From the NCBI GenBank assembly GCA_003599485.1, contig QZKM01000012.1, positions 1 to 39,647 on the forward strand: a DNA stretch of 39,647 nt, given 5' to 3'. The translations under genes and the position numbers were made by a program. The notes below the pieces were generated by a model. It ran no database searches. It worked only from the letters and a program-made list of their open reading frames with translations, and was not told the origin of the DNA. Origin of the DNA: Gammaproteobacteria bacterium (lineage in GTDB: Bacteria > Pseudomonadota > Gammaproteobacteria > SURF-13). Below, one piece after another: positions 33,131 to 39,647 of this stretch (the first letter of the stretch is position 1; the number at the start of each line of letters is the position of its first letter).

Positions 33131-34009
33131 ATGCTCGCCGATTCGCATTGTCATCTTGATCGTCTCGATTTTGCCGCCTTGGGAGGTGATCTCGATACGG
33201 CCATCGCAACCGCGCACGCCGCGGGAGTGGACTACCTGCTCAGCATATCGGTTGATCTGGACAGCCTGCCCGGCGTGCTCGCTATTGCGGAGCGCTATCC
33301 GCACGTGTACGCCTCGGTTGGCGTACACCCCGCGGAACTGGTCGCGCATGAACCCGGCGTAGAACAACTGGCGGCGCTCTCGCGTCATCCCAAGGCCGTC
33401 GCCATCGGCGAAACCGGCCTCGATTATTTCCACTGCAAGAGTGACACGGAATGGCAGCGTGAGCGCTTCCGCACCCATATCCGCGCCGCCAGGCTCGCCG
33501 GCAAACCGCTCATCGTCCACAGCCGCGACGCCAGGGAAGACACCCTGCGCATCCTGGCCGAAGAGGGCGCGGCCGGGGTGGGTGGGGTGATGCATTGCTT
33601 CACCGAAGACTGGGACACCGCCCGGCGCGCCCTTGAGCTCAATTTCTACATCTCCTTCTCCGGCATCGTAACCTTCCACAACGCCAAGGCACTGCGCGAG
33701 GTCGCCGCCAGGGTGCCTCTCGACCGGACGTTGATCGAAACCGACTCGCCTTACCTCGCGCCAACGCCGCACCGCGGACTTCGGTCCGCGCGGATGCGAT
33801 TCCGCGCGTTGCCGGGCTACGCCCAAACGTCCGCGCGGTCCCGGATCACGAACTTGGCTTCGTCCTGCCGCGTGAGACGGTCCAGGTTCTCCCAGTGCAT
33901 GCGCTCGGCCATCCCGCTGCCGGGGCACTTCACGTCCAGGATCACGTGCGCCCGCCGGTCGAGGGGAGCCGTGTCGATCGCCCCGCTGGTCTCGACGAGG
34001 ACCTCGTAG
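33131..34009 (+). CDS. tatD: TatD-family DNase/hydrolase, 3' end lost at the junction
   Basis: Metal-dependent hydrolase of the TatD family (3'-5' exonuclease-type activity in E. coli). Residues 1-216 are typical: metal ligands His6/His8 (SHCHLD), Glu in 'GETGLDYF', His in 'VHSRDA' and 'HCFTE', and Asp205 in 'TDSPYLAPTPHRG'. After Gly216 (33,778) the frame stays open to 34009 but loses all similarity to TatD, running through the junction and then antisense to queE. A normal protein would have about 40 more residues. So this is a truncated gene with a false tail. It starts 15 bp after pilZ. Confidence 0.9.
   Translation: MLADSHCHLDRLDFAALGGDLDTAIATAHAAGVDYLLSISVDLDSLPGVLAIAERYPHVYASVGVHPAELVAHEPGVEQLAALSRHPKAVAIGETGLDYFHCKSDTEWQRERFRTHIRAARLAGKPLIVHSRDAREDTLRILAEEGAAGVGGVMHCFTEDWDTARRALELNFYISFSGIVTFHNAKALREVAARVPLDRTLIETDSPYLAPTPHRGLRSARMRFRALPGYAQTSARSRITNLASSCRVRRSRFSQCMRSAIPLPGHFTSRITCARRSRGAVSIAPLVSTRTS
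33779..33828. other. Junction between two unrelated genomic segments
   Basis: TatD similarity ends at 33,778 from the left and QueE similarity ends at 33,829 from the right, leaving 50 bp that code for neither. The zone holds a 7-bp CGCGGAC/GTCCGCG hairpin with a TTCG loop (33773-33790), an 8-bp hairpin (33787-33794/33801-33808) and one copy of the 10-mer GTCCGCGCGG (33784-33793) whose second copy (33829-33838) is the first part of queE. Confidence 0.85.
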
Positions 34010-34275
34010 CCCGCGTCACAGAGGCGTGCGACCAGCGCGAAGGTCTCAGGCTGATGGAGGGGTTCGCCGCCCGTGACCTCGACGAGCGGGCAGCCATAGG
34101 CGCGGACTTTGTCGAGCACCTCGTCGATGGTGAGGTCCGCGCCGCCGGAAAAGGTGTAGGCGCTGTCGCACCAGGTGCAGCGCAACGGGCAGCCGGTCAG
34201 CCGGACGAAGACGCAAGGCTGTCCGGCGTAGCTGGATTCGCCCTGGATGCTATGAAAGATCTCGGTGACTCGCAT
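33817..34275 (-). CDS. queE: 7-carboxy-7-deazaguanine synthase QueE, 3' end lost at the junction
   Basis: Radical SAM enzyme that makes 7-carboxy-7-deazaguanine for queuosine. The remaining 152 residues include 'EIFHSIQGESSYAG', the cluster-binding Cys29-x3-Cys33-x2-Cys36 (CPLRCTWC) and 'VTGGEPLHQ'. Similarity ends at 'KFVIRDRAD', and the frame then reads VWA and stops; complete proteins have roughly 200 residues or more. ATG at 34275 is chosen over an in-frame TTG at 34281. The gene faces tatD across the join. Confidence 0.92.
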   Translation of the reverse strand: MRVTEIFHSIQGESSYAGQPCVFVRLTGCPLRCTWCDSAYTFSGGADLTIDEVLDKVRAYGCPLVEVTGGEPLHQPETFALVARLCDAGYEVLVETSGAIDTAPLDRRAHVILDVKCPGSGMAERMHWENLDRLTRQDEAKFVIRDRADVWA

Positions 34276-34281
34276 CGTCAA

Positions 34282-35922: not shown

Positions 35923-37086
35923 TCAGGCCCGCAGCCGGGCGTAGCGCCACTTGAGCAGGATGGGGGAAAGGAAGGTCGTCCCTGCCACGACCAGCAGAAT
36001 GGCGCTGTACTCGCCTTCCTTGATGATTCCCTGGGACAGCCCGACGCCGGCAAAGATCAGCCCCACTTCGCCGCGCGGCAGCATGCCGATGCCCACCGCC
36101 AGCGGATCCGCCTTGCTGCCGAGCGCGCCGAGTCCGGCCACCAGCTTGCCGAGCACGGCGGCGACGCCCAGCGCCGCGGCCAGCAGCAGATAGGGCCGGT
36201 TCGCGGCCTCAAAGGGATTCAAGAGGCTCAGGTTGACGGCCGCGCCGACGAGCACGAAGAAAATCGGGACGAAGACGTCGGCGACGGGCTTGATCGCCTT
36301 CTCGATGTGCGCGAGCTGCTCCGTCCTGGCCAGGACCAGCCCCGCGGCGAAGGCGCCGACCAGGGGCGCGATGTGCAGAAGCCCGGACAGGTAGCCCAGC
36401 AGGAGCGCAAAGGTCACGGAGGCGACGATGAGGCTGCCGCGGGTGTTGAGCAACTTGAGGAAGTCGCCCAGCCGGTGCCCGTAAAAGATGCCGATCAGGA
36501 TCGCGGTGGCCAGCATCAGCGTCGCCAGCCCGGCGCTGCGCCCGACCTCCAGCCAGGAGACCGCGCCGGTCGTGGCCAGCCCGATCAGCACCGAGAGGAT
36601 GATGAGCCCCAGGAGGTCGTCGATGACCGCGGCGCCGAGGATCACGTGGCCGTCCGGGGTCTTGAGCTGTCCCAGCTCGGCGAGCGCGCGCGCGGAAATC
36701 GCGATGCTCGTCGCGGTGAGGGTGGCGCCCAGGAAGATCGCCTGCAACTGGCTGAGGCCCAGCGTCAGGCCCAGCAGGTCGCCGAGCAGGAAAGGGACGG
36801 CCACCCCGACGACGGCGACCAACGTCGCGGCCCGGCCCACCTTGAGGAAGGCGTGCAGGTCCGATTCGAGGCCGATCTCGAAGAGCAGGAGCATGACCCC
36901 CACCTCGCCCATCAGCTTGAGCGTGGGTGTCTCCTCGATCCATCCGAAGAGGCTGCCGCCGATCAGCACGCCGGCCAGGAGCTCGCCGAGGACCGACGGC
37001 TGGCCGAGGCGCAGGGCGATTTCGCCCATGACCCGCGCCGCGCTGTAGATGATGATCAGGTTGAGGAGAAACTCCTGCAGATCCAT
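35923..37086 (-). CDS. CPA2-family cation:proton antiporter
   Basis: Integral membrane protein with about 11-12 hydrophobic segments across 387 residues, exchanging Na+ or K+ for protons. Typical CPA2 motifs: 'RLGQPSVLGELLAGVLIGG' near the start, the two-Asp motif in 'GAAVIDDLLGLIIL' (ion binding), and 'GMLPRGEVGLIFAGVGLSQGII' in the later part. There is no C-terminal RCK/TrkA-N domain, unlike KefB/KefC, so it is the short NapA-like form. CAGGAGAC precedes the ATG. The 259 bp between tRNA-Leu and its stop codon show only a small hairpin (35811-35816/35821-35826). Confidence 0.93.
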   Translation of the reverse strand: MDLQEFLLNLIIIYSAARVMGEIALRLGQPSVLGELLAGVLIGGSLFGWIEETPTLKLMGEVGVMLLLFEIGLESDLHAFLKVGRAATLVAVVGVAVPFLLGDLLGLTLGLSQLQAIFLGATLTATSIAISARALAELGQLKTPDGHVILGAAVIDDLLGLIILSVLIGLATTGAVSWLEVGRSAGLATLMLATAILIGIFYGHRLGDFLKLLNTRGSLIVASVTFALLLGYLSGLLHIAPLVGAFAAGLVLARTEQLAHIEKAIKPVADVFVPIFFVLVGAAVNLSLLNPFEAANRPYLLLAAALGVAAVLGKLVAGLGALGSKADPLAVGIGMLPRGEVGLIFAGVGLSQGIIKEGEYSAILLVVAGTTFLSPILLKWRYARLRA

Positions 37087-38210: not shown

Positions 38211-39647
38211 CTACAGCATCTCCACCGGATCCACATCCACCTCGAACTTGAGCCCGCCCTTCCGATCCGTCCTTTCCAGTTTCTCCAGCGTCGTCTTGAC
38301 CGCCTCCCGGCCGGCGTCCGCCTGTCCGGCCTTGACCAGCAACTGCCAGCGGTGACGGCCGCGCAACTGGGCATGGCTGGCCGGAACGGGACCCAGCACC
38401 GTCGTCTGGGCGTGACGGCCCGGGACGCCGGCCGCGATCGCCGCCAGCAGCAGCCTGGCCCAGCGCTTCGCCGCCTGCTGCACCCGTTCCGCCTCCTGCC
38501 CCGACACGCGGAGGCTGATCAGGTGCGCCGACGGCGGATAGCCGAGCGCCTGGCGGAAGATCATTTCCTGCTCATAGAAGAGCGCGGGCAGGCCGCCCGC
38601 CACCGCGGCGATCGCATGGTGATCCGGCATGTGCGATTGCACGACGACCCGGCCGCCGGATGCGGCGGGAAGGGCCAGGTCTGCGGCATCGCGGAGCGCA
38701 TGGTAGGTCCGCTCGGCGGCGCGGAAATCGGCCACGTGCAGACCGTCGTCGGCCTGGGGAACGCCCACGAATCCGACCGGCGGGAGCGGGCTGCCCTGAA
38801 ACAGCATCTGGGTGCCGATGAGGATGTCCCACCGTCCGGCGGCCGCCTCCTGCCGCAGCGCTTCGGCCTTGGCCGGGGTGCGGGCGCGCTCCCGGTCCAG
38901 CCTGGTGAGGACGGCCCCGGGGAACTGGCGCCGGAGCATCTCCTCCAGCCGTTCCGTGCCCGACCCGACCGGCTCGAGCCGCGCCGCCTGGCAGGCGGGG
39001 CAGACGTCCGGCAGCGCCCGGGACAGCCCGCAATAGCGGCAAGCCAGGGTTGCCGCCTTGCGGAAATAGGTGAAGGCGACCGTGCAATCCGGACAGCGCA
39101 GGGCCTGGCCGCAATCCCGGCAGAGCAAGGCCGTCGAGAAGCCCTTCCGGTTGAGGAAGAGCACCGCGCGGCTCCCCGCGTCGAGGGCGGCGCGGATGCC
39201 GTCGACCAGGCCCGTGGAGAGCAGCGTGCCGTAGGGCTGCCGCCGCATGTCCACCACTTCGATGTGCGGGGCGGGCGGTTGCCAGGTCAGGGCGCGGCTT
39301 TCGCCGCAGTCCTGCCAGGTCTCCAGTGACGGATGGGAGGAGCCCAGGATCAGGCGCGCCCGGTGCTGCGCGGCCCGCATCCGCGCCACATCACGGGCGT
39401 GGTAGCGCGGCTCCTGCTCTTCCTTGAGCGAGGCATCGTCCTCCTGGTCCACGCAGACCAGACCCAGGGAGGGCAGGGGCGCAAAAATGGCCGAGCGGGT
39501 CCCGACCACGATCCGCAAGCGGCCGGATTGCATCTCGCGCCAGACCTCGGTGCGAACGGCCGGGGAGAGCCCGCTGTGGAAGAGGGCCACCTGGTCCGGC
39601 CACCGCTGCCTGGCCTGGCGCGCCATCAGCGTGGCCCGCGCGATGTC
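38211..39647 (-). CDS. priA: PriA-like primosomal protein N' with atypical helicase motifs (5' end outside window)
   Basis: The C-terminal 478 residues of a PriA homologue; the frame runs off the right edge. PriA restarts stalled replication forks. The eight zinc-binding Cys are present (CRDC, CPDC, CRYC and CPAC), together with 'HSGLS', 'GTRSAIFAPL', 'GTERLEEML', 'GTQMLFQG' and 'DFRAAERTYHAL'. Three helicase motifs are changed. Motif II reads VDQEDD instead of DEEH, so the catalytic Glu is Gln (codon 39444-39446). Motif III is GSSHPSLET instead of GSATPSLES. The QVAGRAGR motif VI (arginine finger) is absent, replaced by 'RDAADLALPAASGG'. The N-terminus with Walker A is not in the window. So this may be a PriA that no longer unwinds DNA but still assembles the primosome. 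Confidence 0.9.
   Translation of the reverse strand, partial: DIARATLMARQARQRWPDQVALFHSGLSPAVRTEVWREMQSGRLRIVVGTRSAIFAPLPSLGLVCVDQEDDASLKEEQEPRYHARDVARMRAAQHRARLILGSSHPSLETWQDCGESRALTWQPPAPHIEVVDMRRQPYGTLLSTGLVDGIRAALDAGSRAVLFLNRKGFSTALLCRDCGQALRCPDCTVAFTYFRKAATLACRYCGLSRALPDVCPACQAARLEPVGSGTERLEEMLRRQFPGAVLTRLDRERARTPAKAEALRQEAAAGRWDILIGTQMLFQGSPLPPVGFVGVPQADDGLHVADFRAAERTYHALRDAADLALPAASGGRVVVQSHMPDHHAIAAVAGGLPALFYEQEMIFRQALGYPPSAHLISLRVSGQEAERVQQAAKRWARLLLAAIAAGVPGRHAQTTVLGPVPASHAQLRGRHRWQLLVKAGQADAGREAVKTTLEKLERTDRKGGLKFEVDVDPVEML

Follow-up and report, generated by a model that had tools for sequence, protein, structure and literature searches.

The priA fragment at the right-hand end of the stretch of DNA analysed here (39,647 nucleotides in full, hereafter the window) very probably derives from a Nitrospirota bacterium rather than from the organism that supplied the rest of its bin, and it is predicted, with the same good confidence, to encode a PriA pseudohelicase that is ATPase-dead, recognises forks and recruits DnaB. 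PriA normally spends ATP on DNA unwinding in replication restart. The original prediction, that ATP-driven unwinding has been lost while a scaffold for DNA binding and loading has been kept, is well supported by sequence, and what it described in one gene is a trait of a whole lineage.

Identity of the PriA fragment

The fragment covers the last 478 codons of a gene on the minus strand, in which the following features were located:

38211 to 39647, minus strand: degenerate priA, last 478 codons, open at the contig end with the 5' part missing
38214 to 38582, minus strand: PriA C-terminal domain, kept, ending in FEVDVDPVEML
38658 to 38696, minus strand: place of motif VI, LRDAADLALPAAS in place of xTQVAGRAGRxx, both arginines gone
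38694 to 38729, minus strand: DFRAAERTYHAL block of the second RecA-like domain, kept
38781 to 38825, minus strand: motif V, ILIGTQMLFQGSPLP, the AKGHD half lost
38991 to 39122, minus strand: cysteine-rich region, all eight zinc cysteines kept in four CxxC pairs
39138 to 39161, minus strand: motif IV, LFLNRKGF, largely kept
39318 to 39350, minus strand: motif III, ILGSSHPSLET in place of LGSATPSLES (T to H)
39420 to 39455, minus strand: motif II (Walker B), CVDQEDDASLKE in place of DEEHDxSYKQ

In profile searches, the PriA (primosomal protein N') equivalog model TIGR00595 scored 409.6 bits on the window ORF against a cut-off of 230.35; among Pfam models, PriA_C (PF18074) scored 66.7 bits against a cut-off of 26.9 and Zn_ribbon_PriA also exceeded its cut-off, and no helicase domain model matched the window protein at an E value of 0.001. 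The protein reached at best 436 bits on PRK05580 models versus at best 139 bits on PRK14873 models, which we take to represent the actinobacterial PriA type, and its top matches among solved structures were PriA chains (e.g., 4nl4 and 8fak). Its eight-cysteine zinc region is placed between the RecA-like domains; in the window copy the N-terminal 3'-DNA-binding domain (3'BD) would lie beyond the end of the contig, and it was present in all 11 relatives scanned. With regard to annotation, proteins of this kind score as "replication restart helicase PriA" (TIGR00595), yet they are very probably not helicases.

Helicase motifs and selection

The original prediction had read motif II of the window copy as VDQEDD, with Gln at the position of the catalytic Glu, and motif III as GSSHPSLET, had found QVAGRAGR missing, and had described the eight zinc cysteines and the C-terminal region as kept; all of these readings agree with the features listed above, the kept C-terminal region being the one that matches PriA_C. 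A loss in motif V had gone unmentioned: the window copy reads GTQMLFQGSP, not AKGHD, and both the Lys and the His are gone. In motif IV, the window's clade carries K at the second R of NRRG. The claim of a missing N-terminal Walker A held for one set of proteins only, as the contig of the window copy ends before this motif would be reached, and the motif is truly absent in full-length relatives.

Per-site counts compared 85 canonical sequences with the 46 sequences of the window's clade (the window's included). The Walker A Lys is found in 85 of 85 canonical sequences versus 1 of 45 in the clade and the second Arg of motif VI in 85 of 85 versus none of 46, while each of the eight cysteines is found in every sequence of both sets (85/85 and 46/46); the catalytic Glu of Walker B persists in 4 of the 46. 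Among positions near-universal in canonical PriA (i.e., at least 95% conserved), those nearly gone from the clade chiefly comprise the Q-motif Gln, the Walker A residues, the second (acidic) residue of Walker B, the motif III Thr, the motif V Lys and His, and the Q, G, R, G and R of motif VI; Y182, R328, Q368 and R376 (L002 numbering) are lost as well. The clade still keeps 8 of 9 such positions in the cysteine-rich region (CRR) and 8 of 9 in the C-terminal domain (CTD). Because the same positions are lost across the 46-sequence clade and kept in all 85 canonical sequences, the broken motifs of the window PriA can be put down neither to chance nor to sequencing error.

Open frames of about 600 to 870 codons are found across the degenerate sequences. 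The Pfam 3'BD, CRR and PriA_C domains were each detected in 11 of 12 aligned members, with 3'BD missing only in the truncated window protein. For close pairs in the window's clade dN/dS was 0.18 to 0.35, compared with 0.07 to 0.14 for canonical pairs, and the lowest values usually fell in the zinc and second RecA regions. These comparisons show purifying selection to be keeping the 3'BD, the RecA-like cores, the eight-cysteine region and the C-terminal domain; as dN/dS lies above that of canonical PriA, constraint on the degenerate protein is partly relaxed.

Origin of the contig and PriA copy number

The simplest reading of the window contig is that it is an assembly chimera, in which proteobacterial DNA is followed by Nitrospirota DNA. 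The features that bear on this reading are:

33775 to 33829, no strand: putative chimera junction at which tatD and queE both end, with Nitrospirota DNA to the right and proteobacterial DNA to the left
33817 to 34281, minus strand: queE, truncated at the 3' end, sharing 85% identity with the gene of Nitrospirota genome G107
35923 to 37086, minus strand: CPA2-type cation:proton antiporter, 72% identical to its G107 counterpart, with an order relative to priA that G107 shares

Left of about 33.78 kb lie the proteobacterial genes lol, msbA, rne, plsX, pabB, mltG and tatD; rne scores 896 bits on the E. coli-type RNase E model, and the first 216 residues of tatD, after which the gene breaks off, are 66-72% identical to same-family genomes versus 48-51% to Nitrospirota. 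The window queE is at best 54% identical to sequences from the family of the bin (G000), which has its own queE on contig C8. From the junction to the end of the window, gene order is collinear with G107 (i.e., queE, two further genes, the antiporter, a small gene and priA). A hairpin-like GC-rich sequence (CGCGGACTTCGGTCCGCG) lies at the break. Mis-binning of the whole contig was also considered and was dropped in favour of a chimera, since the left 33.8 kb are proteobacterial and both tatD and queE stop at a single point.

A canonical second priA in the same genome had been named as a finding that would overturn the original prediction, and taken literally the bin does hold one: contig C41 encodes a PriA with 40% identity to the window protein and with the motifs GVTGSGKT, DEEH, GSATPSLES and QVAGRAGR, a canonical type also seen in those relatives of G000 whose PriA sequences were read. 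We rejected this copy as a refutation, since gene-by-gene kinship puts the right arm of the window in Nitrospirota; as the window contig appears to join two organisms and Nitrospirota carriers are single-copy, the C41 gene is assigned to another organism and carries no weight against the prediction. A low-threshold scan found one place above the TIGR00595 cut-off per genome in 11 of 11 genomes with a related PriA. In near-complete genomes such as G186, G190 and G192, where the contig with priA is approximately of whole genome size, the single PriA is the degenerate one, and no helicase-competent PriA was found beside a degenerate one in the Nitrospirota genomes that carry this type, each of which had one PriA.

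Distribution and phylogeny in Nitrospirota

When Nitrospirota were searched for the same motif pattern, as had been proposed together with the prediction, the pattern emerged as a lineage-wide trait of the 46-sequence clade that includes the window's protein. Walker A and motif VI are absent at all 11 Nitrospirae/Nitrospira loci with 46-60% identity to the query, of which ten reach the gene end, whereas L014 is truncated at a contig edge. Across 148 Nitrospirota genomes and two class-level searches, both canonical and degenerate PriA types occur, and canonical PriA is present in both classes that hold degenerate groups. Gene trees place the window protein inside a supported degenerate clade (44 rows; 51 with the sister group in another tree); another 36 rows, from a different class of the phylum, form a second degenerate clade, and we can only guess that this class is Thermodesulfovibrionia. 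Twelve of the 148 genomes, these twelve being 1.4 to 2.0 Mb in size, gave no PriA match at E < 1e-40, which may reflect absence, incompleteness or further decay.

Several individual sequences deserve mention. A degenerate sister group beside the window's clade (L177, L178, L180, L181 and L182) has motifs such as VVEEEQDPAYKQ and LLTSASPSVET. A very degenerate subgroup of the second class (L136 and L138 to L142; MVSQESHWLYKE, VLTDFMPSTTS) has also lost GTQ of motif V and retains all eight cysteines. L184 (G196), from the same class as the window's PriA, has DEED, is without Walker A and motif VI and does not fall clearly in either degenerate clade; it is possibly a further independent loss. The canonical PriA L173 (G225) has its Walker A region out of frame (WGDRERQDRGL), probably through a frameshift or sequencing error.

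An argument from the gene tree alone for two or more independent losses was dropped, as a single degenerate clade was not rejected by the AU test (p 0.67; long branches are in play in this tree). What speaks for multiple losses is instead that each of the two classes contains canonical as well as degenerate PriA; if there was one loss, transfer or hidden paralogy would have to be assumed. We tentatively entertain the idea, to which we give somewhat less than even chances, that two or three lineages of one phylum independently made their sole PriA an ATP-independent platform for fork recognition and DnaB/DciA loading while the helicase was retained in sisters of the same class; the ATP-driven remodelling of forks would then have passed to another helicase.

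Proposed mechanism and alternative explanations

DciA is a widespread DnaB loader; of 78 genomes from the class to which the window PriA belongs, 77 contain it. With an AlphaFold model of the relative L006, which is of modest quality (pLDDT 70, pTM 0.60), PriA structures ranked first among structural matches, 8fak being the best (E 5e-46). In fork-bound E. coli PriA, the CRR, HD2 and CTD form a pore round the lagging-strand ssDNA, and PriA-PriB restart in vivo in E. coli does not require the PriA ATPase (PMC10175261); the parts that form this pore are among the best kept in the window's clade. We propose that Nitrospirota PriA of this type would be unable to hydrolyse ATP or to unwind DNA and would still recognise branched forks via the 3'BD, the RecA-like cores and the cysteine-rich region. 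Lagging-strand ssDNA would probably be enclosed in a CRR/HD2/CTD pore, as seen in the E. coli protein, and DnaB may be recruited by the degenerate PriA directly or with the DciA loader; clearing of the lagging-strand duplex, if any, would be left to another helicase.

Four other explanations were weighed. The canonical gene on C41 suggests that the degenerate gene could be a spare, with a working canonical PriA elsewhere in the same genome; we judge this highly improbable, given the opposite affinities of tatD and queE on a chimeric contig, the bin's own queE on C8, the collinearity of the window's right arm with G107 and the single PriA copy of Nitrospirota genomes with the degenerate type. 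A pseudogene on its way to being lost would account for dN/dS values about two- to fourfold above those of canonical PriA, and is set against long open frames, invariant cysteines and clear purifying selection, which leave it a very slim chance.

A rebuilt site might still bind or slowly hydrolyse ATP, as one acidic residue of motif II persists in 45 of the 46 sequences of the window's clade together with parts of motifs III to V; with the Walker A Gly and Lys, the motif VI arginines and the motif III Thr gone, and with no shared replacement GKT, this too appears improbable, if less strikingly so. The protein could also have left replication restart and serve some other purpose as a structural DNA-binding protein, in line with the finding that even 3'BD residues differ in the second degenerate group. 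Such a role seems very improbable, however, as binding to forks and DnaB persists in the pseudohelicase of Deinococcus radiodurans (PMC4504706) and the window's clade keeps all PriA-specific domains in the only PriA found. An ATP-independent PriA that acts at forks remains our preferred reading.

Comparison with known PriA proteins

To our knowledge, the HAMAP annotation of actinobacterial PriA (mycobacterial Rv1402 and kin) records no detectable helicase domains. The smaller size and strong divergence of actinobacterial PriA were noted in 2005 (PMC1193525). The mycobacterial protein is listed as essential (PMC5694481), and DnaB is bound by mycobacterial DciA (PMC5720831). The window protein differs from this type, as it scores far lower on PRK14873 (139 bits) than on PRK05580 (436 bits). 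For PriA of D. radiodurans, ATPase activity was not measurable and unwinding was negligible, and the protein binds ssDNA, forks and its DnaB; the report on it stresses motifs I and II, with GKT changed to GRT in that phylum (PMC4504706). Degraded helicase motifs, DNA binding that is kept (as predicted here) and a proposed restart role without ATPase are common to this protein and the Nitrospirota type, whereas the latter, which belongs to another phylum and is known from sequence, loses the Q-motif and motifs I, II, III, V and VI. In domain order and fold the degenerate PriA resembles the E. coli and Klebsiella proteins (PDB 8fak, 4nl4 and 6dgd), which gave the best sequence and fold matches and in which, by contrast, Walker A, Walker B and motifs III, V and VI are intact.

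The degenerate PriA had also been proposed to be a separate solution; this does not hold as to kind, given the biochemically demonstrated D. radiodurans pseudohelicase (PMC4504706) and the divergent actinobacterial PriA (PMC1193525). A search of open-licence papers for Nitrospira together with PriA returned nothing relevant, and the loss in Nitrospirota PriA appears to be unreported in the literature searched and more extreme than that in Deinococcus. New are the extent to which the motifs have been erased and the finding that canonical sisters occur within the same classes. Although helicase motifs are conserved widely among PriA proteins, E. coli can do without the activity in PriA-PriB restart. 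Nitrospirota, where large groups have lost the ATP site and the same classes include helicase-competent sisters, offer a natural experiment on the purpose of this activity and on which other helicase covers for it.
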